The position numbers were made by a program, and so were the translations under genes. The notes beneath the pieces are model-generated. The model saw only the letters and a program-made list of their open reading frames with translations, was not told the DNA's origin and did not search any database. Shown here in pieces: positions 9,446-64,000 of a stretch of DNA of 64,000 nucleotides. Every line of letters begins with the position of its first letter. Position 1 is the first letter of the stretch. Source of the stretch: a virus; IMG/VR virus record IMGVR_UViG_3300017963_000203, positions 1 through 64,000 of that record; one strand, 5' to 3'.

Positions 9446-9790
9446 ATGCCCCAATCGCCAGATCCGTACCCGATGTTCCTCGAGGCCATGAAGAAGGCAA
9501 CGTCGGGGATCGGAGAGAATATGCAGGGATTCTCCGTGTGCTTCGCCGCCAAGAAGATCGACCACCCAGACGGCGACAACTTCCCCGGAGTCCCTGACGA
9601 CCAGCTCGTCTACACATGGGCCCAAGGCGGGCCGCCGGTAGTCGTGAATATGATCTACCTCGAACTCGCTGTCAACCTGCTCGAGCAGTTCATACAGAGC
9701 AACCGTGGGAACCTCTACATCGCCATGGAAATGATGAAGGCGAAGGTTCTCGAGAAAATGATGGGCAGGGAACGACAAAGGAGACCCTGA
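9446..9790 (+). CDS. Hypothetical protein inside the split polymerase locus
   Basis: 114 residues. No family recognised. It has a central beta-rich region and a C-terminal amphipathic helix (LELAVNLLEQF..., EMMKAKVLEKMM). Its TGA overlaps the ATG of the polymerase C-terminal gene (TGATG), so the two are translationally coupled. Together with the MBL gene it makes up the 1.24 kb that separates the two polymerase halves. Confidence 0.75.
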   Translation: MPQSPDPYPMFLEAMKKATSGIGENMQGFSVCFAAKKIDHPDGDNFPGVPDDQLVYTWAQGGPPVVVNMIYLELAVNLLEQFIQSNRGNLYIAMEMMKAKVLEKMMGRERQRRP

Positions 9791-24397: not shown

Positions 24398-24759
24398 GGG
24401 GGCGTAAAGGGTTCGACTGGGTAGTGAAAGGATACCTTGCGTGCCGTGGTTGGTCGGTCACCACGTTAAAAGCCGCCCACACTTTTAAGTGCCAATCCAA
24501 ACACTGGGAGCTTCACCGCTCCCCTCGCAGCGGTCGCTTAGACCCCTGCCCTCAAACCGGCGAGGTTCCGTAGCTGGGGCGAGGCCGTTCACGGGACTGG
24601 ATCGGCAGAGCTGGTCGTCTGCTGGTTGAGAAAAGACCTGGCTTCGTCGGGTGGAAAGAACCCGAATAGGTTGCCGGCTCTCGAAAGAACCGGATACGCG
24701 CGTAGACAGGTACTGGAAACTGCTTCAGGACGTGGGTTCGATTCCCACCGCCTCCACCA
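24398..24759 (+). ncRNA. ssrA: Transfer-messenger RNA (tmRNA)
   Basis: A complete 362-base tmRNA. The acceptor arm is GGGGGCG / CGCCTCC with the G3.U pair that marks alanine charging, followed by discriminator A and an encoded CCA. The 5' part GGGGGCGTAAAGGGTTCGACTGGG and T-arm GTGGGTTCGATTCCCAC are canonical. The tag reading frame starts at 24491 (GCC after TTAAGT) and ends at TAG 24539-24541, giving ANPNTGSFTAPLAAVA, a hydrophobic end typical of ClpXP-type degrons. It rescues stalled ribosomes and tags the nascent chains. It sits between two intrinsic terminators. Confidence 0.95.
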
Positions 24760-29582: not shown

Positions 29583-29964
29583 GGATGTGGCGACGCTTCA
29601 AGAGAGCGTCGACCAGACCATCCACGGCGACGACATCTTCATCCCCTTCAAGAAGATGTCCCTGCGCCAGGGCGTCCTGGAGTACGGTGTGATCGAGATC
29701 GCACCGGACGTCTGCAAGCTCATCTTTCACTTCGAGAACGTCTCCAAGAACTTCGCCAATCAGCTTGGCCGGTTCTTCTGGGAGAAGGTACGCAGGAAGA
29801 TCATCACGGACGCGGACCTCATGGCCGGGGCATCCGTAGAGGCGGGTGAGAACCCCATCTTCAGAAGCAACTGGGACGTGACCATTCTCAACATCAGCGC
29901 TCTCGTCGCCCAGGCGAAGCTCAATCTCATCGTCGATAGTCTGAAAAAGGAGTTCCCTGTATGA
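29488..29964 (+). CDS. Hypothetical protein upstream of sigma factor
   Basis: 158 residues, ATG 29488 with GAGGCAGA upstream. Mixed alpha/beta; FKKMSLRQGVLEYGVIEI and CKLIFHFENV are strand-rich. No family recognised. Its TGA overlaps the sigma ATG (ATGA), so both are co-translated; an anti-sigma or co-factor role is possible but unsupported by motif. Confidence 0.7.
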   Translation: MGNLSSKPRKTPKIIQPGDPDYARLVGTVTDEDVATLQESVDQTIHGDDIFIPFKKMSLRQGVLEYGVIEIAPDVCKLIFHFENVSKNFANQLGRFFWEKVRRKIITDADLMAGASVEAGENPIFRSNWDVTILNISALVAQAKLNLIVDSLKKEFPV

Positions 29965-30923
29965 AAAAGACAAGCGCTGATTTCAGAGAGTACTACACGC
30001 AGTTTCGTGCCTATCCTCCTCTTCGCCCCACCGAGGAACGCCGCCTGCTGCACGTGATCAAAGGCCTGCAACCGCCAGTGGACTACGACGGCATGGAGCG
30101 AATGTGGGGAAAGCACAAGGAGAACGGGACCAAGGGCGCCATCGATGATCTGTGGCTCTCGCTCGACGAGAAGATGTGGGGCGTCAAACAGGAGAACCCA
30201 TTCCCAGTCAACGGAACCTGCCGGCGGCCAACGCGACAGGAAATGAAAGAGGCCCTCGAGCGTTTCGTCATGCACAACATGCGCCTGGTCCTGTCGAGAG
30301 TGCTGAAGTTCAGGCACCAGGAGGACCCAGACGTCATGGAGATCGTCTCCTACGGGACCGACGGTCTTTACCGAGCCATCGAGCTCTTCGACCTATCCCG
30401 CGGGACGAGGTTCTCCACCTACGCCGTCCACTGGATTGAGTCTCAGATCAGGAAAGGCCTCAAGTTCGTCGAAGGGCAGAAACCCCCTCTCCTGAAGAAA
30501 CTGACGAGCACGTTCAAGAGGGCCGAGAAAGACCTCACCACGGACGACGGCATTCGCCCGACGAACGAGGACGTGGCCGAGCACCTGAACTGGGGGCGAA
30601 AGACCCTGCACATCTACCAGACGTCAGGAATCTCCAATACGCCGATAGAGACCTTCGACCGCGAGGACGAATCGTGCGAACCCATACCCGATGACATCGT
30701 GCAGAGGGAGATTGTGAACGCTCTACACGACAACATGGGTGTTCTGGAGCCGTTCGAGGAGGACATCATCAGGAGGCACTACGGACTCGGCTACCCGGAG
30801 GAGACCCTACAGAAGCTGGCAGCCAGGTACGGCGTGACCAAGGAGCGCATCCGGCAGATTGAGAACGGCGGCCTCGAGAAGCTCTACATGGCCCTCCGCG
30901 CCTTCCGCGATCCGGACGATTAA
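29961..30923 (+). CDS. Sigma-70 family RNA polymerase sigma factor
   Basis: 320 residues. Region 2 is clear: MRLVLSRVLKFRH, DGLYRAIELFDLSRGTRFST and YAVHWIESQIRK (promoter melting and -10 reading). Region 3 and a linker follow, then region 4 as a helix-turn-helix, EEDIIRRHYGLG...LAARYGVTKERIRQIE. An extra 70-residue insertion sits between regions 1.2 and 2. It should steer a core polymerase to phage promoters. The same phage encodes a beta-beta' polymerase at 58-64 kb, the obvious partner. It is the last rightward gene before convergent transcription. Confidence 0.92.
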   Translation: MKKTSADFREYYTQFRAYPPLRPTEERRLLHVIKGLQPPVDYDGMERMWGKHKENGTKGAIDDLWLSLDEKMWGVKQENPFPVNGTCRRPTRQEMKEALERFVMHNMRLVLSRVLKFRHQEDPDVMEIVSYGTDGLYRAIELFDLSRGTRFSTYAVHWIESQIRKGLKFVEGQKPPLLKKLTSTFKRAEKDLTTDDGIRPTNEDVAEHLNWGRKTLHIYQTSGISNTPIETFDREDESCEPIPDDIVQREIVNALHDNMGVLEPFEEDIIRRHYGLGYPEETLQKLAARYGVTKERIRQIENGGLEKLYMALRAFRDPDD

Positions 30924-42837: not shown

Positions 42838-44028
42838 TTACACCACGGCCGGCAGCGCCGCCTGGAGGTTGTCGTTGATGATGGTGAAGTTCCCGGCCGA
42901 GGCCGTGACGCCCGCGGGCGTCTGGAACGTCACCGGCAACGTCATCCTGGCTCCCTTGAGCAGGATGGCGCCGAGGGCGCGGATGTTGCCGAAGCCGGCC
43001 CCGACGTCCTCCCAGGCCTCCATCTCGATCCAGCGGCTCCGCTTGTCGATGAAGAACTTGGTGTTCTCCAGGACCATGAAGCGGCCGATGAACTCGGGGG
43101 CCGGGAACACGTAGATGACGCCCGGCTCGACGAGGTCGTCGTTGTCCCGGATCGTGGTCACGAAGGTGTAGCCGCCCACGGTCGTGTACTTGTACCCGTC
43201 GCGGACGATCTCGCTCGTGATCTCGAGGCCGGCCTCCGTCAGCGACCACGCGACGGTGTCGGTCCAGGTGACCTCGTGGAGGAGGAAGGTACGCGCCTTC
43301 TGCTGGCGCGCGGCGGGGATCTTCACGAGGTCCTTCAGGACCACGCGGTTCCAGTCGTCCTCGTCGGAGAGGATGATGTTGGAGTAGATCGCGTCCGCCC
43401 GGTTGAGGTTGGCCGTGGGAATCGGGGCCCACGCGCCGGCGCCCTTGGCCCTCTGGAAGAGGAAGCGCATGAACTCGGCCTGATCGCCGAAGTTCCTCGT
43501 GCCGCCGGCGACGACGCCGCGCTGCACGAGCTTGTTGTAGTTGTACCGGGTGCCCAGGAAAAGCCCCGACTTCACGTGCTGCATGAACGTGAAGTCCTCC
43601 TGCTCCTGGATGTCCTTGGCGATGTTCTGCTCCAGGATCTTGGTGAGGGGCATGCGGTAGGAGCGGAGCTCCTGCTCGGACTTGATGATCTTGTCCGAGG
43701 AGATCGTGTGAAACACGATCTTGTACCGCGGAGCCTGGATGTAGGTCTTCTCCGGCTCGCCGCGCCAGTTGATGTGCATGGCGATGGAATCCGGCTCGAG
43801 GTCGTCGATGTACTCGAGACCTTCGTCCTCGATCCTCCGCTGGCACTCCTTCTCCGTCACGACCTTCGGAGGCAGGATCTTGCGGCAGAAAGCGTTCTCA
43901 CGGAGCTTCTGCTGGATGTACAGGCCGCTGGCCTGTCCGAGCTTCGTGAGCGCCTCGCCGCCGACCTCGAGGGTCTGCCCGAACAGCGTGTTGAACTGCT
44001 CGGCGTTGAACGCGCCCGTATCCGACAT
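42838..44028 (-). CDS. Probable major capsid protein
   Basis: 396 residues, ATG 44028 after AGGAGGAACTGAC. HK97-fold major-capsid features by pattern: helical N-terminal arm, a long charged spine helix (MPLTKILEQNIAKDIQEQEDFTFMQHV), E-loop/A-domain strands and a closing GAGFGNIRALGAILLKGA segment. It is followed by a dedicated terminator and preceded by scaffold-like and decoration-like genes, the normal capsid order. Length fits a 400-residue capsid protein. Confidence 0.75.
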   Translation of the reverse strand: MSDTGAFNAEQFNTLFGQTLEVGGEALTKLGQASGLYIQQKLRENAFCRKILPPKVVTEKECQRRIEDEGLEYIDDLEPDSIAMHINWRGEPEKTYIQAPRYKIVFHTISSDKIIKSEQELRSYRMPLTKILEQNIAKDIQEQEDFTFMQHVKSGLFLGTRYNYNKLVQRGVVAGGTRNFGDQAEFMRFLFQRAKGAGAWAPIPTANLNRADAIYSNIILSDEDDWNRVVLKDLVKIPAARQQKARTFLLHEVTWTDTVAWSLTEAGLEITSEIVRDGYKYTTVGGYTFVTTIRDNDDLVEPGVIYVFPAPEFIGRFMVLENTKFFIDKRSRWIEMEAWEDVGAGFGNIRALGAILLKGARMTLPVTFQTPAGVTASAGNFTIINDNLQAALPAVV

Positions 44029-51942: not shown

Positions 51943-53820
51943 TCAAGACCGAACAGCCGGAACGATCGTCCTGGCGTAGTCCCCGTAATACTGCTTGGCT
52001 GCCAGCCAGCAGTACATCGTCGCCTGAAAAGCATCGTCGGGGAGCGTGTGGTCGTAGCGCATGGTCTGATGATAGTCGTCGTACTCGATGAAGATCGAGG
52101 TGAAGTCGTCGATCATGGGCATCTTGGGGCTGGGGTCGTTCTTCATGAGTTCGAAGCAAGGGAACCGGATGCGGGCCTTCTTGATCGTGTCGATCACATC
52201 CCGCATGTTCTGGAACCGGTCGATCAGGTATCGGCCGTACTTGCCCGCCTTGGGATCGAACTTCACAAGGGCGCGCTGCTGCGTGGACTGGAACTCGAGC
52301 AAGACAGGATCCGGTGTGCCCACATCCACCGGTTTCCACCCGTAGTTGTCCACGAGGTGCTCGTTGTTGATGTGGCCGAAACCATAGTCCGATCCGCAGA
52401 AGGCCACCTGGAACTGCCTGGCGAGCTTGTCGAAATGGAAGGGCTGCTGAACCAGGTCCGATTTCTCGCCCAGGTACTTCTCCATGTAATGAATCCGGAA
52501 CTTCTCGTCGGCGCCGAACGTACCGACGACCACCACGGTGAACGCACGTTTCTTCCTCTTCTTCCCCTGCGTGTCCGTAGATCGAAGACCGGTACCGTGG
52601 TCGATGCCCATGAACATCGGCCGCCCTACCCGGCGAAGACCATCTGGACGGTCCCACGACTTCCGCTCCTCCTCGCAGGCATTTCGGATGTCCTGTTCGG
52701 TGAGGACAAGCTCGCCCTCCTCGCTGGGGAGGCCGAGCGCTTCATTCTGGAAAATGGAGAAAGGGACCTCTGGATCGTGGAGTTTGGAGTGAACTCGCTT
52801 GAATGACTGGAAGGGGACCTGGATCTGGCTGATCCTGAAGCCGAAGCTCTCGTCCAGCTTGCTCGGCCGCATGGCCACCCACTCACCGCCGAAATCATTC
52901 GGGTCCCGCGGATTCTTGTGCTTCTTCGGAAAGATTTCCTTCCCGCATCGCGTGCAGATGAAGAAGAAGTCGCCGATGACGTTTTCGTCCAGGTAGTTCC
53001 AGTGAGAGCAGTGGCTGCACTTGACCATCCACTCGAACTGGCTCGTCTGATCGTAGCGCCTGGGCAGCACGTTCATCTTCGACTTTGGCGTCCCCGTATA
53101 GATCCGGAAGAACCGATCTGGTAGGGCGTGTGACTGGGTCTCCTCGATAACGGGAATTTCGTCGGAGATGATGTCCTGAATCTCGTCGATGTTGACCAGA
53201 TCGGCCGAAACACCGCGAGTGGCGTCGGCTGTCAAATAGCAGGATCGAAAGTTCGCATAGGCTCCGTTGTTGAACTCCTTCATCCCCACCTGCCAGATGT
53301 TCATGGTGGAGAGCATCTCAGCAGCAATACGCGGAGAGTCCTCAGCGATCTTCTTGAAACGCTGCTGGCTGAAGACGGAGACCTGGCTGAACCTGGGCTG
53401 GATGAACAGGGCCTTCATGTTGGGCATGGAGGCCATGAGGGCGATGGACTTACAGGCCGCGGTCGTGCTCTTCTCGCACTGCCGAGCCCACATGAGCACC
53501 ATGTTCCGCGAGCCCTCTGGATGCTTGACGCTCAGGTCGTAGATGGGTTTGAGGTAGGAACGATCGTGACGAATGACCGAGCCGTCCATCTGCTTGATGT
53601 GATCGACGTATCGGAACGGCCAGCCCTTCTCGACGTGGATGATTTCCGGAATGAGATCAGAGAGTGTGGTTACATCCCGTGTAGCCTCTTCATCGTAGAG
53701 AGACTCCTGCTCTGCCTCCCCCATGCCGATGATCAGATTTCCATCTTCGTCGACGAAGTTAATCTCTCGAGGATTGACCGTGCCGTCCTCGATAAACCAG
53801 CCGTCGTTATGACCTGCCAT
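51943..53820 (-). CDS. terL: Terminase large subunit
   Basis: 625 residues from ATG 53820, preferred to an earlier start that would overlap the upstream gene by 100 bases. ATPase: Walker A-like MWARQCEKST (about 110-119, with Glu where Gly is usual), Walker B LVNIDEIQD (D212, E213), coupling YTGTPKS. A zinc ribbon (CSHC...CTRC) follows, then an RNase H-type nuclease with FMGIDHGTG, FCGSDYGFGH and a late DDAFQATMYC. It pumps DNA into proheads and cuts concatemers. Confidence 0.93.
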   Translation of the reverse strand: MAGHNDGWFIEDGTVNPREINFVDEDGNLIIGMGEAEQESLYDEEATRDVTTLSDLIPEIIHVEKGWPFRYVDHIKQMDGSVIRHDRSYLKPIYDLSVKHPEGSRNMVLMWARQCEKSTTAACKSIALMASMPNMKALFIQPRFSQVSVFSQQRFKKIAEDSPRIAAEMLSTMNIWQVGMKEFNNGAYANFRSCYLTADATRGVSADLVNIDEIQDIISDEIPVIEETQSHALPDRFFRIYTGTPKSKMNVLPRRYDQTSQFEWMVKCSHCSHWNYLDENVIGDFFFICTRCGKEIFPKKHKNPRDPNDFGGEWVAMRPSKLDESFGFRISQIQVPFQSFKRVHSKLHDPEVPFSIFQNEALGLPSEEGELVLTEQDIRNACEEERKSWDRPDGLRRVGRPMFMGIDHGTGLRSTDTQGKKRKKRAFTVVVVGTFGADEKFRIHYMEKYLGEKSDLVQQPFHFDKLARQFQVAFCGSDYGFGHINNEHLVDNYGWKPVDVGTPDPVLLEFQSTQQRALVKFDPKAGKYGRYLIDRFQNMRDVIDTIKKARIRFPCFELMKNDPSPKMPMIDDFTSIFIEYDDYHQTMRYDHTLPDDAFQATMYCWLAAKQYYGDYARTIVPAVRS

Positions 53821-54835
53821 CAGCCAACTGCCCCTGAATCTCCGCGTTGATGGATTTGAACTCCCTGTCGGAAGCGACGATGGAAATGTTCTGGAAGAAC
53901 GAGCCACCTTGGACAGGCTTGTCCACGTCTCCGCGCGTCACACCCACCTTGGTGTAAGAGTTGAGGTGCTGGTGAACGTGCTTGAATCCTTCCCCCTTCA
54001 TAGCCAACGTCGCGAGAATCTTCTTCTCGAGATCGACAGCCACGATGCGCAGCGTCTCCTGGAAGTGAGGCTCCTTCCCTTCGCGAATACGCAGTTCGCC
54101 TGTGGTCATCCCCCTGGCTTTGCTCTTCGCCTTCCTCTCGGTGGGTAGGATGATGCCCAGGTAGTACCGCCAGTCACGCTCGGTCATGGGCGCGATGTCG
54201 TAAAAAACAGACATGTAGAGGTCGAGCGCCACATTCTTCCACTGCTGTCCGGAGAGCTCCTCCATAGCGGCCTGATGGTCGGCCCGGGTCCCTCGCGTGG
54301 TCACAACGCTCTCTATGATGTTCTTGGTTTTGGCGTCACCCAGGAACGAAAAGAAATTATCCATCCACAAGGGGTTCGAATACGGGACGATGACGCCGAT
54401 GACCCGAAGGAGCATCTCATAGGCGCCTTTCTGCTTCGCCGACGGAGCCTTGCGTTTCTTCACCGTGTCCTTGAGTTCCTTCGGGATCCTGGACAGGAAC
54501 CGCTTCTCGAGCTTCTTGTAGTAACCGAGCCCGAACTTGGGGGACGCGAGGTTGCGCTGATGGATCTCGGCCACGGCCTCCTTCTGTGGTGTGGTGAGGA
54601 ACTTGAGGCAGAGGAAACGGTGGAACGGAAGAATGTGGCCGTTCTCGCGCCCGCTCCCCCCGAAACTGTAGATGTGATTCTTGGCGCATCTGAGGATGAA
54701 GTCGTCGCGTGGATCGATCTTGTAGAGGATGCGGCCGTGTTTCGCCTGCGGCTTCGCCTTCAAGAGATCCTGGACCTCATTGAAAGTGGCCGGCGAAATG
54801 CCGTACTTCTCGCAGATTTGGACTCGTGTAATCAT
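53807..54835 (-). CDS. Possible terminase small subunit
   Basis: 342 residues. N-terminus MITRVQICEKYGISPATFNEVQDLL looks like a helix-turn-helix, common in small terminases; the rest is helical and basic with an alpha/beta middle. It is encoded directly before the large subunit and overlaps it by 14 bases. It is longer than typical TerS, so the call is tentative. Confidence 0.5.
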   Translation of the reverse strand: MITRVQICEKYGISPATFNEVQDLLKAKPQAKHGRILYKIDPRDDFILRCAKNHIYSFGGSGRENGHILPFHRFLCLKFLTTPQKEAVAEIHQRNLASPKFGLGYYKKLEKRFLSRIPKELKDTVKKRKAPSAKQKGAYEMLLRVIGVIVPYSNPLWMDNFFSFLGDAKTKNIIESVVTTRGTRADHQAAMEELSGQQWKNVALDLYMSVFYDIAPMTERDWRYYLGIILPTERKAKSKARGMTTGELRIREGKEPHFQETLRIVAVDLEKKILATLAMKGEGFKHVHQHLNSYTKVGVTRGDVDKPVQGGSFFQNISIVASDREFKSINAEIQGQLADGRS

Positions 54836-56888: not shown

Positions 56889-58316
56889 CTACGACAGCGT
56901 TTTCGAAGTCAGTACCTTGCTCGACGACGATGCCTGCGGCTGATCCAACGTCTGCTGGATGTCCGTTGACTGAAGGGCCGTCGGCGGCGTACCGGGCGTG
57001 ATGAGAACGGGATGAGTGTGCAGTTTAATGGCGCTCATGTCCGCATCGTACTTGGTCAGGAACCTCTCGTCCACGAGACCCATACCCCTGACCGAAAGAT
57101 CCGTGTTCAGATTGATCGCCATCAGCTCCCCGCTTCCGCTGATGTCCAGCTTGTCACCAGACACCTGGTACGTCAGGTTGGGCACCCCGTCGGTGCCCTC
57201 CGGAACCTGAATGCTTTCGCCGTCCACCACGAGCGACGACGCCATGGGCGACTGGCTGTTGAATTTTAGCTGGCCGCCCACGATCTCGAGCATCCCAGCG
57301 ATCTGAACACCCTTGTCCGTCAGAGCGATGAACTTATCGCTGGCCCACGTGAGTGAGATGCGCTTGTCGTCCATGAGAATCGAGCGACCTTTCCGCTTGA
57401 GCACAAGCATGCTGTCGCTCAGAACGACCTTGTTGTCCCCCCAAACGAGACCGATTTGGTTTTCGTTCATCCGGAACTGGGCATCCTTGCCGAACGTGTC
57501 CTGTCCGGCCTGAATCGCCACCTTAGAGAGTCTGACCTCTTTGGCCTGATTATCCACCTCGAGCAGCGCGTGCGTCCCCAAGAGCGCCCACACACCTTCG
57601 GAGATGGTCTGCCCCTTTGTCTCCACAGAGACGTTCTTGGTGGGGCGGTTCCCGTTCGAAACTGCGCCAGCGACGATATCCACGTCACGGTCAGCTTCGT
57701 CGGATGGATCACTGTTGATGCTGATGGTGGTCGTGGCCTGCTTGGTCTTGTCGTCGGTCTGGACCTTAAAGCTGTATCCGGCGAAGATCTGCCAGCAATC
57801 CTTGGCCCAAGTGACCGCAAGACTCTTCACCCGACTCAGAAGACGGAAACAGAAGTTCGAGGCCAGGGAGAGGATGTCACCGTTCTCGTAGATCTGGTGA
57901 TAACTACGAGGATCATCCCGGTTCTGCATGACCACATCGCCCTCCAACGGTGGGTCAATAACATATTCCCCGAAGTCAGCCATGTCGATGCTGTATCGGT
58001 CGTGGAGGGCCCTACGAAGCTCGAGGTCCTTCTGGTACACGGCACCCGCAGGAGATTCTCTTTCCTTCGTGGGCGCCCTTGACGAAGCAACTTCGCCGAG
58101 AATGAGCCAGCTTGACGTGGCAAACTTGATACAGGCCACCCGAGTGCCGACAGGGTACGGCTTGTAGGCACCGCTCATGATTGGGCGAGCGATCCCCTCA
58201 CTTTTCCCATCGAGAGCGATTCGGTACGTGTTCACGCCGGGATCGTACGTGCGCACGAAACCCATGTTGAACGCCGCTTCTTGCGCTGAATCGCCGAACA
58301 GTCCCGATCGCAGCAT
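56889..58316 (-). CDS. Baseplate spike / gpV-like protein
   Basis: 475 residues from ATG 58316 (GAGGAG four bases upstream, overlapping the polymerase stop). An N-terminal OB-like region (MSGAYKPYPVGTRVACIKF...SWLILGEV) is followed by about 250 residues of short repeated beta strands, as in triangular beta-helix spikes. Near the C-terminus IKLHTHPVLITPGTPPTAL is the H-T-H-P motif seen in baseplate assembly/spike proteins. It fits the puncturing device of a contractile tail. Confidence 0.7.
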   Translation of the reverse strand: MLRSGLFGDSAQEAAFNMGFVRTYDPGVNTYRIALDGKSEGIARPIMSGAYKPYPVGTRVACIKFATSSWLILGEVASSRAPTKERESPAGAVYQKDLELRRALHDRYSIDMADFGEYVIDPPLEGDVVMQNRDDPRSYHQIYENGDILSLASNFCFRLLSRVKSLAVTWAKDCWQIFAGYSFKVQTDDKTKQATTTISINSDPSDEADRDVDIVAGAVSNGNRPTKNVSVETKGQTISEGVWALLGTHALLEVDNQAKEVRLSKVAIQAGQDTFGKDAQFRMNENQIGLVWGDNKVVLSDSMLVLKRKGRSILMDDKRISLTWASDKFIALTDKGVQIAGMLEIVGGQLKFNSQSPMASSLVVDGESIQVPEGTDGVPNLTYQVSGDKLDISGSGELMAINLNTDLSVRGMGLVDERFLTKYDADMSAIKLHTHPVLITPGTPPTALQSTDIQQTLDQPQASSSSKVLTSKTLS

Positions 58317-58317
58317 C

Positions 58318-61300
58318 TCACTCCTCGAGCTTGTCCACAAGTTCCTGTAGAGCCGCACTCACGTCCCCGTCGAGATCGGAATGAACAACCTCTTCGGGCT
58401 CGACCATCAGGGACATTATAGAGTCGATCTCACGGGTGAGAGCCACCTTGGACATGTTCTGGTCCACTTTCGTGTTGAAGTACTTTCCGAAAGCGTACGT
58501 AGCAATGGGATGGCCACCAGGACCGATGTTGGAAACGGCTCCGAGCCCCGGGGCGGCCTTGAGTGTCTGGTGGGGCCGCTCGGCTACGAGCTGACCGATG
58601 AAGTCGTTCGCGTATTGAGGAGCCTTCCTGATGGACAAGAGCGTAGGCGTGAACACAATGGGCTGCTTTCCCTTCTTCCGCAGCTTCTTGTTCATGGCCT
58701 CCAGATTGTTCACGGAGATCACGTCGCCTCGGTGCACCCCGAACTCCACGTCTGCATCGCCCGGCTCGTCCACTTGGGCCCGTGTCGTGAGTGGATGGAT
58801 GGCAGTCTCGAAGATCTTCCGCTTCACCCGGACGCCGGCGTCGGTGAAGACCCGGCTCATGTCACCGATCATTCTCTCCTGAACGACGTGGATGTCGTTG
58901 GTGGCCGCGAGGACATCCTGAGGCTTGACAGCCCCGCCAGCCGAGAGCATCTGACCGGCTCGAACGGATTGACCCTTCTTCACGCCCAGACCGACCTCCT
59001 TGGGCACGAAGTGTCGCATTCCCGCGACACTCACGTTCCAGCCGCCAGCGGCGGAAGTCTCTATGCTGTCGATCTTTCCGCCCTGGAGTGCCAAAATGGC
59101 ACGGCCCTTCACATTGGTGGGCATCTCAAGGATCTGTTTCAGCCTGGGGTAGCCCAAACTTGCACCGCCCAGGGCGCCGCCCGTGTGAAACGTCTTCATC
59201 GTGAGCTGCGTTGCCGGCTCCGAAATCGTTTGACCGGCGAGTGTTCCGACATGGTAACCCACGTTGGGGAGGTTTCCGTTCTCCAACGGACCAAAGCACA
59301 TGGCGCAGACGCCCCGAGTGGCCTGGCACCGTAGGGGAGACCGAACCTTGATCTTCTTCACGCCGCGCGCCTTGAGGTTCCTGATGAGCTGCGGGTCGGT
59401 GATCTTCCCGCGGTATGGCCCACTGGCCACGACCCGGTCAAGCGCTTCTGGATCCGTGATGCCCATTTCGATACCCATGGTCGTCCCGCAATCCCGCGCT
59501 GAGATGGTCGTGTCCACTGTAGCGGCGATGAGCGCCTTTCCGAATGCGCCGGTGTCAGCCGTCGAAAGCGTACGGTCCATGAGGCCCTTCCGGGAGCCGG
59601 GGATCATGGCCCAGAAGCTGCCCATGTCCATGCCCTCGGAGAAGGACTTCTCGATGGGCACCTCGATGATCTTCCCCTCGTGATCTGTCACGGCCACGGG
59701 CGAGGCGACCATCTGGGTGATCATATTGGACTTCCCGAAAGCCCCGGAGAGTGGACCTCCGATGACCATCCGGTTGTCCACCTTGGCCTTGACCGCACGC
59801 TCCATCTCCTTCTGGGCCCGCCCGTAGGCCTTGGCGAAGCCCATGGTCTTGGCGTTCTTCTTCGCCTTGGCCAAAATGGAGTCGCGCTCGTTCTTCGGGA
59901 AGGAGAGATCGCCCAGGTCGAAAGACCATCCAATCTCGGTCACGTACTTGTTCCCGAGATCCTTGATCTTCGAAATCACCTGGCCGGCCACGGCCGGCTT
60001 CTTCCTGGCAACGTCATGGATGATCTTCATGAGCTTCCCCTTGTCGACCGAGATGTTTCCCGGTTTGAATCCGACAGGGAACGCCTGGTTGAAGATGATC
60101 TGCCCTGCGCAAATCCGATTCCCGTGAATTGACACCGCTTGATTGGCTTTGATGCGGCCGCTCCGGTACATCTGGAGAACCTCGTTCTCTGAGCTCGCCT
60201 TAGTGACCGCTGCGCCTTTCGGGGTGGTCATGAGGTAGACCCCGAGAACCATTTCCATCGATGGAGAGTGGATCAGGCTGTTATCCCGGGGACTGAAGAG
60301 GTTGTTGCTCGGGAGCAGATTTGTCGTAGCCTCGCGGCGAGCATCCTCCGACACCGGTACGTGGACCTGCATGGCGTCGCCATCGAAATCGGCGTTGAAC
60401 CCCTTCACCACGAGAGGGTTGATCTCGATGGCCTTACCCTTCGTGAGCATGGGCTTGAAGGAGAGAAGGCTGAATTTGTGGAGGGACGGGGCTCGGTTCA
60501 GCACGACCGGCCGCTCCCGGACTACGGCCTCGAGTGCGGAGAGGGCTGAAGGATCTCGCTTCTCGATCAGTTCCCTGGCCTTCAGTGGCGGATACCCGAG
60601 CATCCCCATCCTCTGGACGATGAAAGGCTTGTAGATGGTGAAGGCCATTTCCTCGGGAATCTTCGCCTCATCGATGCCGAGTTTGGGGTCCGGGATGATC
60701 GTGGACCGGCCGGTGAGGTCCTGCCTGCGCTTCAGCACACGACCTTGAAAGAGGCCGTACTTGTTCTGCTGTCCCTTGATGGTGGCCAGGAATCCCTTGA
60801 AATTCTGGCTTCTGGTCAGAGGCTCCTGCAACCCCACCAGCCCACGGACCGCACCGTAGAGCTGCGCCCGGAGTGGAGCAAGGTTCTTGTCGTCCACACC
60901 CAAGCTCTTGAGGTCCTTGATCTGGTTGTTCACCATGAGGACCTCTCGGTAGCCGTGTACGGGATCCGCCACGTTCAGCGTTCCGTCCGGATTGGGGTAG
61001 ATGGGGCGCATCTTGGCCGGAACGACGGGCACCTTCGAGTTGAGGTACGCCTTCGCCGGCGTCAGGTTCACAGCCTTGAGCGCACGGAGATATCGGAGCT
61101 TCTTGATGGCTACGTCACGCCGATCCCCCTTCAACCCGCTGACCTGGCGCCGCAAACTCCTCAGCTCTCCGTCCACGTCGATCTTCGATAGAAGAATCTT
61201 GAGACCTTCGCCGCCCGTCTTGTTCTGAGGTGCGTGATCGTGGGTGATCTCTCCCTCCGGCGTGACCCACAACGTGCCGTTGATGAGTCCGTTAAACTGC

Positions 61301-64000
61301 GTTCGCTTGAACGGACGCCCGGGCTGGCTGAGAACGCCCATGATAGCCTGATCCATGAGTGGATTGGCGATGGGTCCCTCGAGGTCGATGTGATTCCAGT
61401 AGTTCCCGTCGAAACCGCCTGTCAACCCTCGATCAAAGAGGCCCCGCGGCTCGGGGGCCAAGTCGTTGGCCCGCACTACGCCAGGACTCGTGATGGCCCC
61501 GTTGCTCTGGTCGAGGATATCCTCGTCAGTGAGCGGGAGTGCCTTGAGCTTCTTGCCCTCCTGCTTCACGTTGATCCCGGCGCCCTTCATGTAAGCCATG
61601 AACTTGTTCACCACGAAGGGCGACTTCGGTGGCGGCGTCGGGAGGCCGAGCTGGATGGCACGCCAGAACTCGTCGTTCTTCTGGGACTTGATCGTGGCCG
61701 CATCCCGCAGAAACGCCGTGCCTCCGGAAGAAAGGAGCGAGTAGAGCTCCATCATCCCGATGGCCATGGGGCTGGCGTGAGGTTCACGTGCCGGAGATTC
61801 GTCGTGGGTATACGTCGTGTGGCCACGGGCGCTCAGCTTCTTCGAGACCTGGTGGCGCAACTTCACGAAGTGCAGATTTCCCGTCTGCACATTGTCGTGG
61901 TACTTGTTCGTGGTCGGATCGTGGAGACGTTCGGCACTGTTACGGTTGAGACCGTTGGCCTCGAGCTGCTGACGAATGTGCTCCGTGGCGTCTGCCACAC
62001 CACCGAAGTTCTGGACGAGGTACGGCTTCCCCGTCTTCTCGGCGATCTTCCCCGCGGACGCTTCGAGATACGCCCCGGGATTGGCCCGGCCAAGGACTCC
62101 GGACGGATTGAAGAGGACGTCGAGGGGCTTGCCATCCTCGCCGTGATACATCTCCTTGTCCGGAAGGATCATCGTGACGATGCCCTTTCCGCCGTGCCTC
62201 TGAGAGAGCTTGTCTCCGACCTCCAACGTCTCCTCGGTCTTCACATAGACGGTGATGAACTTTCGCGTCTTGACCACGTTCATCACCTCGGCCGGGTATT
62301 CGCTGTCCCACCGAACCGACACATCCTGCCACTGGTGCTTCAGAGACCGGTGCAAACTGGCGTAGCTGAATTCCTCGTGGACCTTTATCTTTCTCACGGC
62401 TGGAATCGCCACATCACCCATCTGGAGGACGGCGCCAGTCTTCACAATCCCGTTGGGGCCGTACTTCGACCGGTCCAACCCCTCGGCCTCAGCGGGGAAG
62501 TGAGCCAGGAATACCGGAAGCCCCACGCTGATCGTAGAGTCCAGGTTCAGGGTCATCTCGTGTTTATGCACCGAGGTGAGTTTCTTGGCCGCAGTCTCCG
62601 AGACGACGATACCGTCCTCGAAGTTGTACCCCTTGTAAGGCATGAATCCCGTTCGAAGGCTCTTCCCGAGAGCCAAGGCGCCGTTACGCGTGAAGTCGGA
62701 ATCGGCCACCGGCTGACCCTTCCGCACACGGTCTCCCGTCTTCACAATCGCCTTCTCGTTCAGGAAAGCGTTCGAATTGAGCGGGTAGTGATCGTGGAGC
62801 GGGACGGTGTACGTCTGCCCATCGTTCCCTTGAATCGTGATCTTCTTCGAAGTGACACGCTTCACCACACCGTCCACTGGAGCCTGGGGCACGATACGCT
62901 CGCCAACAGCCGTCTCGTAGCCCCGCGCTCCGAACTTGGACTGAACGAGGGGCACGTCCGGGTCCTTCAACGGCACGGCCTGGGTGATGTGATGACTCGC
63001 CATGAGGATCCGGTTGGGGCTGTTCGTGTGAACGAAGGGGACGGCATTGGCCGCGAAACTGAGGATCTTGGAGGCGCTGTCCACGATGTAATCCACCTGA
63101 CGTGCGGGGATCATCTTGAACTCGCCTTTGTACCGGGCCTTGACCGGATCTCTCCGCGCTTTCGGCGGCGTCCTGGTGGTGTCGAACTCATCGTTGAACG
63201 CGAGCACCTTGTCCTCGAGGTCGAAGGCTTTCTTCGTCTCTCTCGCGCCCGTCTTGGCGTTGATCACCGTCAGCCCAATGTCGTTCCCGATCTTCTTGGA
63301 ACCGAGAGCGAGATGGGCATTGATGCCGATCTTGCTCGACTCTGGCGTCTGAACAGGGTCGAAGATCCCCAGGTGGCTCGGGTGCAGGGCACGGAGTCGG
63401 TCACTTACCGCGTGTACGGAGGAGATGCCTCCCTCGCCCATGGACGTGACCAGGGACTGCACGCCCACCATGTCGAGGGGATTATTCTGGTCGCTGTATC
63501 GAGAGAACTCGCTTGTGGTGAAGAACCGCTGCACGGGCTTGGTAAAAAGAGAAGGTGGAAGCACGTCGACCACTGACGGCCGGCGATCGATCTGGAATCG
63601 AATCGACCTCTCGGCTGTCGGTACGTTCTGCTCGAGCTTCTCGACGATGAAATCGTCCACCGAATGCAGGGACTTGTAGGCCAGGTTCTCAGTGTCGTCG
63701 GCCTTCACCTCTCCGCGAGCCAGAGCCAGGGCCTTCTCGCTCGAAGCCACAAGGACCTTGGGCTCGATGCGGCTGTATCGGGTCCCAAGCGTCAGCTTCG
63801 TGATGTTCGGATCCAGCGGTTTGCTGGCAAAGAACTTTCCGATGGCCTCGGCCAAGGCTTCCTGACCCTCCGGCTGGTCGGCGTAGGGTCGCATCTTTTT
63901 GTAGAGCTTCGCCAACTCAGCAGGGCGGTCGTACTTCCGATTCTCTTGGAGGATCTCGTCGCCCCAGATCTTCCGAAGGTCCACATCGGTGACGCCCAGA
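58318..64000 (-). CDS. rpoBC-like: Fused RNA polymerase beta-beta' chain (5' end outside window)
   Basis: At least 1893 residues; open to the right edge, missing roughly the first few hundred beta residues. Beta part: DQNNPLDMVG and RALHPSHLGIFDPVQTPES (fork region), GYNFEDGIVVSE, and GDKLSQRHGGKGIV at about 62.19 kb (catalytic Lys region). Beta' part: PVVPAKMRPI, TGRSTIIPDPKL, NRAPSLHKF and the catalytic triplet NADFDGD (60376-60396), a bridge/trigger region GSRKGLMDRTL, CQATRGVCAMC zinc site, TKTFHTGGALG-like clamp end and a C-terminal LLSIRKAPQYANDFI. Both double-psi barrels are therefore in one chain, close to cellular RNAP. The beta' N-terminal zinc finger/clamp is reduced. Partner: the sigma factor at 29961. 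Confidence 0.95.
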   Translation of the reverse strand, partial: LGVTDVDLRKIWGDEILQENRKYDRPAELAKLYKKMRPYADQPEGQEALAEAIGKFFASKPLDPNITKLTLGTRYSRIEPKVLVASSEKALALARGEVKADDTENLAYKSLHSVDDFIVEKLEQNVPTAERSIRFQIDRRPSVVDVLPPSLFTKPVQRFFTTSEFSRYSDQNNPLDMVGVQSLVTSMGEGGISSVHAVSDRLRALHPSHLGIFDPVQTPESSKIGINAHLALGSKKIGNDIGLTVINAKTGARETKKAFDLEDKVLAFNDEFDTTRTPPKARRDPVKARYKGEFKMIPARQVDYIVDSASKILSFAANAVPFVHTNSPNRILMASHHITQAVPLKDPDVPLVQSKFGARGYETAVGERIVPQAPVDGVVKRVTSKKITIQGNDGQTYTVPLHDHYPLNSNAFLNEKAIVKTGDRVRKGQPVADSDFTRNGALALGKSLRTGFMPYKGYNFEDGIVVSETAAKKLTSVHKHEMTLNLDSTISVGLPVFLAHFPAEAEGLDRSKYGPNGIVKTGAVLQMGDVAIPAVRKIKVHEEFSYASLHRSLKHQWQDVSVRWDSEYPAEVMNVVKTRKFITVYVKTEETLEVGDKLSQRHGGKGIVTMILPDKEMYHGEDGKPLDVLFNPSGVLGRANPGAYLEASAGKIAEKTGKPYLVQNFGGVADATEHIRQQLEANGLNRNSAERLHDPTTNKYHDNVQTGNLHFVKLRHQVSKKLSARGHTTYTHDESPAREPHASPMAIGMMELYSLLSSGGTAFLRDAATIKSQKNDEFWRAIQLGLPTPPPKSPFVVNKFMAYMKGAGINVKQEGKKLKALPLTDEDILDQSNGAITSPGVVRANDLAPEPRGLFDRGLTGGFDGNYWNHIDLEGPIANPLMDQAIMGVLSQPGRPFKRTQFNGLINGTLWVTPEGEITHDHAPQNKTGGEGLKILLSKIDVDGELRSLRRQVSGLKGDRRDVAIKKLRYLRALKAVNLTPAKAYLNSKVPVVPAKMRPIYPNPDGTLNVADPVHGYREVLMVNNQIKDLKSLGVDDKNLAPLRAQLYGAVRGLVGLQEPLTRSQNFKGFLATIKGQQNKYGLFQGRVLKRRQDLTGRSTIIPDPKLGIDEAKIPEEMAFTIYKPFIVQRMGMLGYPPLKARELIEKRDPSALSALEAVVRERPVVLNRAPSLHKFSLLSFKPMLTKGKAIEINPLVVKGFNADFDGDAMQVHVPVSEDARREATTNLLPSNNLFSPRDNSLIHSPSMEMVLGVYLMTTPKGAAVTKASSENEVLQMYRSGRIKANQAVSIHGNRICAGQIIFNQAFPVGFKPGNISVDKGKLMKIIHDVARKKPAVAGQVISKIKDLGNKYVTEIGWSFDLGDLSFPKNERDSILAKAKKNAKTMGFAKAYGRAQKEMERAVKAKVDNRMVIGGPLSGAFGKSNMITQMVASPVAVTDHEGKIIEVPIEKSFSEGMDMGSFWAMIPGSRKGLMDRTLSTADTGAFGKALIAATVDTTISARDCGTTMGIEMGITDPEALDRVVASGPYRGKITDPQLIRNLKARGVKKIKVRSPLRCQATRGVCAMCFGPLENGNLPNVGYHVGTLAGQTISEPATQLTMKTFHTGGALGGASLGYPRLKQILEMPTNVKGRAILALQGGKIDSIETSAAGGWNVSVAGMRHFVPKEVGLGVKKGQSVRAGQMLSAGGAVKPQDVLAATNDIHVVQERMIGDMSRVFTDAGVRVKRKIFETAIHPLTTRAQVDEPGDADVEFGVHRGDVISVNNLEAMNKKLRKKGKQPIVFTPTLLSIRKAPQYANDFIGQLVAERPHQTLKAAPGLGAVSNIGPGGHPIATYAFGKYFNTKVDQNMSKVALTREIDSIMSLMVEPEEVVHSDLDGDVSAALQELVDKLEE

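Follow-up and report, generated by a model that had tools for sequence, protein, structure and literature searches.

Cellular-type RNA polymerases (RNAPs) normally require an alpha dimer for assembly and comprise at least four parts. The virus record IMGVR_UViG_3300017963_000203 (130,894 bases, of which the first 64,000, the stretch analysed here, are called the window) ends its window in a minus-strand open reading frame (ORF) that raises the question of whether a phage can run such an enzyme as a single polypeptide. We consider it probable, at roughly three chances in four, that this ORF encodes the alpha-less, working DNA-dependent RNAP core of a tailed phage, with beta and beta′ in one chain. 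The sequence-only reading of this DNA had seen beta motifs followed by beta′ motifs without a stop, and had proposed recovering the N-terminus from upstream. The ORF crosses the window end and its remainder was read from the contig, where an ATG at 64512, beyond the window, completes a gene of 2064 residues (58318–64512, minus strand); residues 172–2064 lie in the window (58318–63999). All the motifs named earlier share this one frame, and the full contig ORF contains no internal stop, the passage from beta to beta′ included.

Along the chain, Pfam domains follow one another in the order Rpb2_3, Rpb2_6, Rpb1_1 (a weak match, residues 1159–1247), Rpb1_2, Rpb1_3 and Rpb1_5 (Table 1). The NCBIfam models for rpoC and rpoB match with E values of 2e-150 and 1e-98, at scores that do not pass the equivalog cut-offs (502.8 bits against 963.5, or about half, for rpoC; 331 against 801 for rpoB), and a sequence search of the PDB returned both RpoB and RpoC, with RpoC the highest cellular similarity. 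Across 16 relatives aligned, the beta barrel lysines K768 and K776 are invariant, D1375, D1377, D1379 and H1776 are conserved, and the cysteines of the second zinc site (ZBD2) are at least 90% conserved. With DxDxD in the beta′ barrel and the two lysines in the beta barrel, the chain appears to fit a cellular-type two-barrel DNA-dependent RNAP. Structure prediction, also suggested by the sequence-only reading, was run with AlphaFold2 on an N-terminal half (residues 1–1094) and a C-terminal half (residues 972–2064), each with a mean predicted local distance difference score (pLDDT) of 77.9. The top Foldseek matches were whole bacterial beta chains for the former (E 3e-67, template modelling (TM) scores 0.70/0.73) and bacterial beta′ chains for the latter (E 2e-66, TM 0.58/0.55). 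By these models the RpoB and RpoC folds would be complete save for the beta′ N-terminal zinc ribbon, and the earlier description of the enzyme as close to bacterial RNAP holds for both sequence and fold.

The junction is nearly free of linker, the end of beta (GAGINVK) running into the start of beta′ (LTDEDILDQ). The zinc ribbon of about 30 residues (CxCGK...CxxCG) is missing from each of the nine clade members in the alignment, always at one and the same site, and is replaced by a short G-x-x-W turn in which G1033, G1036 and W1039 are invariant in the alignment of 16 relatives. Both the beta′ N-terminal zinc finger and the clamp had been described as reduced; the first part stands, and the second applies to the zinc ribbon alone, since the remaining N-terminal clamp strands and the coiled coil, which is the sigma-binding element in bacteria, persist in the alignment, as do the second zinc site and the clamp portion at the C-terminus. 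The bacterial rifampicin-pocket sequence THKRRLSALG is aligned with GVQSLVTSMG here, and the segment varies across the clade; V, L and T occupy what we take to be the positions of E. coli H526, R529 and S531. Because these pocket residues are altered, transcription by the enzyme may be insensitive to rifampicin.

The fused enzyme is no one-off: it belongs to a large family. Scanning with an alignment of four sequences turned up at least 166 viral contigs that encode it, and more came from scanning with a different alignment; among the IMG/VR matches listed there are 85 distinct complete single ORFs with both halves, of 2016–2874 residues. One contig, L063, encodes a protein of 64% identity with the same fusion and has at least six genes downstream of the RNAP gene in the same order. 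It and the other distinct complete single-chain ORFs are independent confirmation of the fusion. A contig that had appeared to be an independent 99% relative (L006) was rejected as such: it is identical to the source contig over 20 kb save for two mismatches and a 33-nucleotide in-frame gap within the RNAP gene, and, representing the same virus assembled a second time, it adds no independent evidence. The nucleotides absent from it are window positions 62226–62258, either a true variant or an assembly error.

Variation within the family includes inserts of 400–800 residues at active-site positions in the longest ORFs (L041, L045, L048 and others); LAGLIDADG domains were found in all three inserts tested, and L045 also gave a weak intein-splicing match. 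In the RNAP gene of L076 (9887–16009) TGA is read as tryptophan: four TGA codons stand in frame, two or more of them where relatives have a conserved tryptophan, and the gene is open for 2041 residues under genetic code 4. Cultured partial relatives in the same clade are Salmonella phage Arash (gp206 and gp216) and Vibrio phages D69, D181 and D148, for which we found GenBank records only and no publication. Identity to the chain described here is 31%, and in Arash and D69 beta and beta′ through NADFDGD/AADYDGD are in one protein of 1525 residues; Arash also has a portal gene just upstream. The terminase is of the GpA type, as here. These Arash-type phages differ in carrying the C-terminal part of beta′ (about 606 residues) in a separate gene, and in D181 the annotation also breaks up the fused gene and includes a homing endonuclease. 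Compact single ORFs of 887–1135 residues occur on contigs of bacterial metagenome-assembled genomes (L105–L111; Armatimonadota, Hydrogenedentota, Poribacteria), some of 80–180 kb; they carry GDKxSNRHGTK and, in most, an NADFDGD-like motif, as minimal two-barrel single-chain polymerases would, and the genomes also have normal rpoBC where checked.

Comparison with bacteria, a further check proposed earlier, used a tree of concatenated beta and beta′ (32 rows, 1624 columns, LG+C20+F+G4) that samples eight bacterial lineages, and was rerun without the long-branch rows L071, GN1, Carin-5 and RHphY65. Single-chain and Arash-type sequences form one clade (support 100/99), and the eight bacteria are monophyletic (100/99) to its exclusion. 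Split phage polymerases resembling mReC, the deep-branching group of Weinheimer and Aylward (2020; PMC7481178), form a third clade (100/100). The branching order among these three clades and the archaea is weakly supported (48/9): by the approximately unbiased (AU) test neither a grouping of the single-chain clade with mReC (p 0.42) nor one with bacteria (p 0.18) is rejected. Despite the bacterial likeness, the bacteria sampled, a limited set, give no support for a recent host origin, because the phage clade falls outside all of them. A 2200-residue single-chain RNAP outside the main clade (L230, 4155–10754) is sister to bacteria (89/89), with a rifampicin pocket more bacterial than that of the main clade, and is possibly an independent second fusion. 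The records ‘Staphylococcus phage SA 1306 Kay’ and ‘Enterococcus phage Efs 1-1-1’ were rejected as phage relatives; they branch with Firmicutes and are bacterial contigs in phage records. The GenBank ‘phage’ contigs L010 and L011 (OR844998, OR846602) carry Firmicutes-like rpoBC and are apparently bacterial DNA. A 211-kb contig of a Woesearchaeota bin (BPGB01000002; L104 and L159) has non-canonical beta and beta′ genes, and is probably misbinned phage because the L159 pair branches with the mReC-like phages.

The RNAP gene heads a minus-strand run that continues with a spike-like protein, the terminase large subunit and a probable major head protein (Table 1). The spike-like protein has no family match, and its homologue in L063 directly follows the RNAP gene. 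Of 84 single-chain loci, 61 have a homologue of the Arash portal on the RNAP strand, no more than eight genes upstream. The phage late-gene context proposed from sequence is borne out, the RNAP gene lying within a portal-to-terminase virion-assembly block and adjoining the spike gene. No match to alpha was found in the source contig or in 33 relatives, contigs that may be incomplete (a control matched in 13 of 14 genomes). Of these 33 relatives, 14 have a match to sigma region 2, and all five Arash-type phages are among the 14. A promoter scan upstream of the RNAP gene found no sigma-70-like site above chance and established no motif for a promoter of the enzyme's own. The window also holds a phage-encoded transfer-messenger RNA at 24398–24759 (plus strand; full-length Rfam match, 2.3e-53) with tag peptide ANPNTGSFTAPLAAVA. 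An ORF from contig position 69632 onward (plus strand; 11633–12001 of L002) may encode a Thg1-type tRNA-His guanylyltransferase; the genome that holds it has eight tRNAs, tRNA-His among them (tRNAs at 9746–10456 of L004).

Table 1. Positions of the polymerase ORF, its elements and neighbouring genes (window coordinates unless stated)
Feature	Position	Strand	Details
Single-chain beta-beta′ RNAP ORF	58318–64000 (within window)	minus	residues 172–2064 of 2064
Rpb2 domain 3 (beta fork/rifampicin pocket region)	63304–63498	minus	residues 339–403; Pfam and alignment
Beta double-psi barrel region (Rpb2_6)	61810–62883	minus	residues 544–901; Pfam
Beta barrel motif GYNFEDGIVVSE	62596–62631	minus	within Rpb2_6 region
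Beta barrel motif GDKLSQRHGGKGIV	62176–62217	minus	within Rpb2_6 region
Beta/beta′ junction	61525–61560	minus	residues ~985–996; alignment with bacterial RpoB tails and RpoC heads
Site of deleted beta′ N-terminal zinc ribbon	61390–61419	minus	GGFDGNYWNH (residues 1032–1041) in its place
Beta′ coiled coil	60829–60969	minus	residues ~1182–1228; alignment
NRAPSLHKF	60472–60498	minus	
Catalytic NADFDGD	60376–60396	minus	residues 1373–1379; Pfam and alignments
Second zinc site (ZBD2)	59296–59490	minus	cysteines 1675, 1729, 1736, 1739
Trigger-loop start QLTMKTFHTGG (H1776)	59176–59208	minus	alignments
Spike-like protein, next gene in operon	56889–58358	minus	OB-fold-like N-terminus and repeats, read from sequence
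Terminase large subunit (GpA type, PF05876)	51943–53907	minus	
Probable major head protein	42838–44028	minus	phrog_2522, 6e-6
Sigma-70 family factor, regions 2, 3, 4	29961–30923	plus	candidate initiation factor for phage RNAP
Portal gene, homologous to L063 portal	71123–72961 (contig)	minus	upstream of RNAP

How might such an enzyme work? The fusion would replace the alpha dimer in bringing beta and beta′ together in a 1:1 ratio, and host subunits would then not be needed for the core to fold. The sigma-70 factor of the phage may bind the beta′ coiled coil, which is still present here, and guide the core to promoters of the phage. The enzyme, produced alongside the late virion genes, might be packaged and ejected, so as to start transcription in the next cell. 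The portal block, spike and terminase make virion carriage the most likely course, since the polymerase would be made with these late genes, and we give it an even chance. Several observations weigh against parts of this account. The predicted TM score (pTM) of the beta′ half model is just 0.45, and residues that we take to be the counterparts of the sigma-contacting R275 and E295 of E. coli are not conserved in the coiled coil. Sigma dependence is no rule of the family, because sigma region 2 went undetected in 19 of the 33 relatives. A stretch of about 6 kb, with ORFs that appear to lie on the opposite strand, separates the portal from the RNAP gene in the source contig. The Arash annotation flags dozens of proteins as structural and its RNAP genes are not among them, which argues mildly against packaging.

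This last point favours a non-virion polymerase, one that is produced during infection, transcribes late (or middle) phage genes and stays out of the virion; phiKZ-type phages encode such an enzyme (PMC7598289), and the sigma factor here is encoded apart from the late block. Such a role is a serious contender, at slightly less than even odds. Against it, the RNAP gene sits inside the virion-assembly block in most relatives, and Rpb2_6 has a single match in the whole contig, which may be incomplete, leaving no second polymerase of the same type to start the infection. A position among virion genes would also suit a relic that has lost catalysis and is retained for a structural role, an idea made very improbable by the conservation of all catalytic residues in 16 relatives. 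That a host rpoBC operon was misassembled into the contig, or that a frameshift error joined two genes, might be suspected from the similarity to bacterial RpoC and from the existence of natural bacterial beta/beta′ fusions (NF007172, NF011417). Such an artefact is ruled out by the conservation of the fusion in independent phage contigs, 85 of them distinct, and is further opposed by the gene order shared with L063, by a GC content equal to that of the genome (0.598 vs 0.599), by the clustering of all sampled bacteria without the single-chain clade and by the ribbon deletion common to its aligned members.

It could also be argued that the single-chain form is a fused member of mReC. Both are phage-encoded, cellular-like lineages outside bacteria, and the AU test does not reject them as one clade. 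Each group nevertheless forms a clade of its own, and the mReC-like contigs have split genes, beta′ (about 900 residues) and then beta (about 1010 residues). This holds for two (L176/L194) that share a sample with mReC1 and mReC3, although their identity with these rests on a shared sample number and an inferred scaffold rank. The terminases differ too. In the mReC paper, the terminase is of the PF03237 type and fusion is mentioned for crAss-like phages only (PMC7481178). PF03237 was found in 10 of 13 mReC-like contigs, with weak PF05876 in two, whereas the source contig has PF05876 only and 22 of 23 single-chain and Arash-type phages have PF05876 (nine also PF03237, mostly weaker). The Gp23-type major capsid model PF07068 had no match in the source contig, and matched nothing in the mReC-like contigs either. 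Membership of mReC therefore seems doubtful to us.

At its fullest, the single-chain reading would describe a widespread tailed-phage family with a virion-borne, host-independent, sigma-directed single-chain RNAP, of a lineage as old as or older than the bacterial polymerase radiation; we regard that whole picture as tentative and on balance unlikely. If true, it would be a third phage solution beside the split phiKZ-type and the YonO/crAss-type enzymes. A one-chain, alpha-less enzyme that keeps almost all of the bacterial beta-beta′ body would be easy to express for structural, promoter and assembly studies, and would test the need for alpha and for the beta′ zinc ribbon. It could serve as a marker for a large phage group, and the deep position of the clade bears on when phages captured or shared polymerase genes. 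The cultured relatives Arash and D69 open the questions of virion carriage and host independence to direct testing.

The single-chain phage family is apparently undescribed: the mainly open-access papers and reviews searched, up to June 2026 (PMC13282480), do not describe any phage polymerase with full-length beta and beta′ in a single chain. A 2024 paper mentions cellular-clade derivatives with fused barrels, and its ‘23 families’ may include the present one (PMC10770324). Beta and beta′ are also joined in the bacterial rpoBC fusions, whose models (NF007172, NF011417) span about 2840–2890 residues; scores here are 501 and 482 against cut-offs of 5372 and 4632. The virion and non-virion RNAPs of the phiKZ/AR9 group are likewise phage-encoded and lack alpha, but consist of four or five split polypeptides where here there is one ORF, and similarity to them is short and weak (28.6% over about 209 residues, E 1e-7). 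The single-subunit enzymes of crAss-like phages (gp66) and YonO have both barrels in one chain, as here. They are, however, very diverged, belonging to the RNAi-type clade (PMC10770324) and having, by the contrast drawn in PMC7481178, no recognisable similarity to rpoB/rpoC, whereas the phage chain described here matches the models of both.
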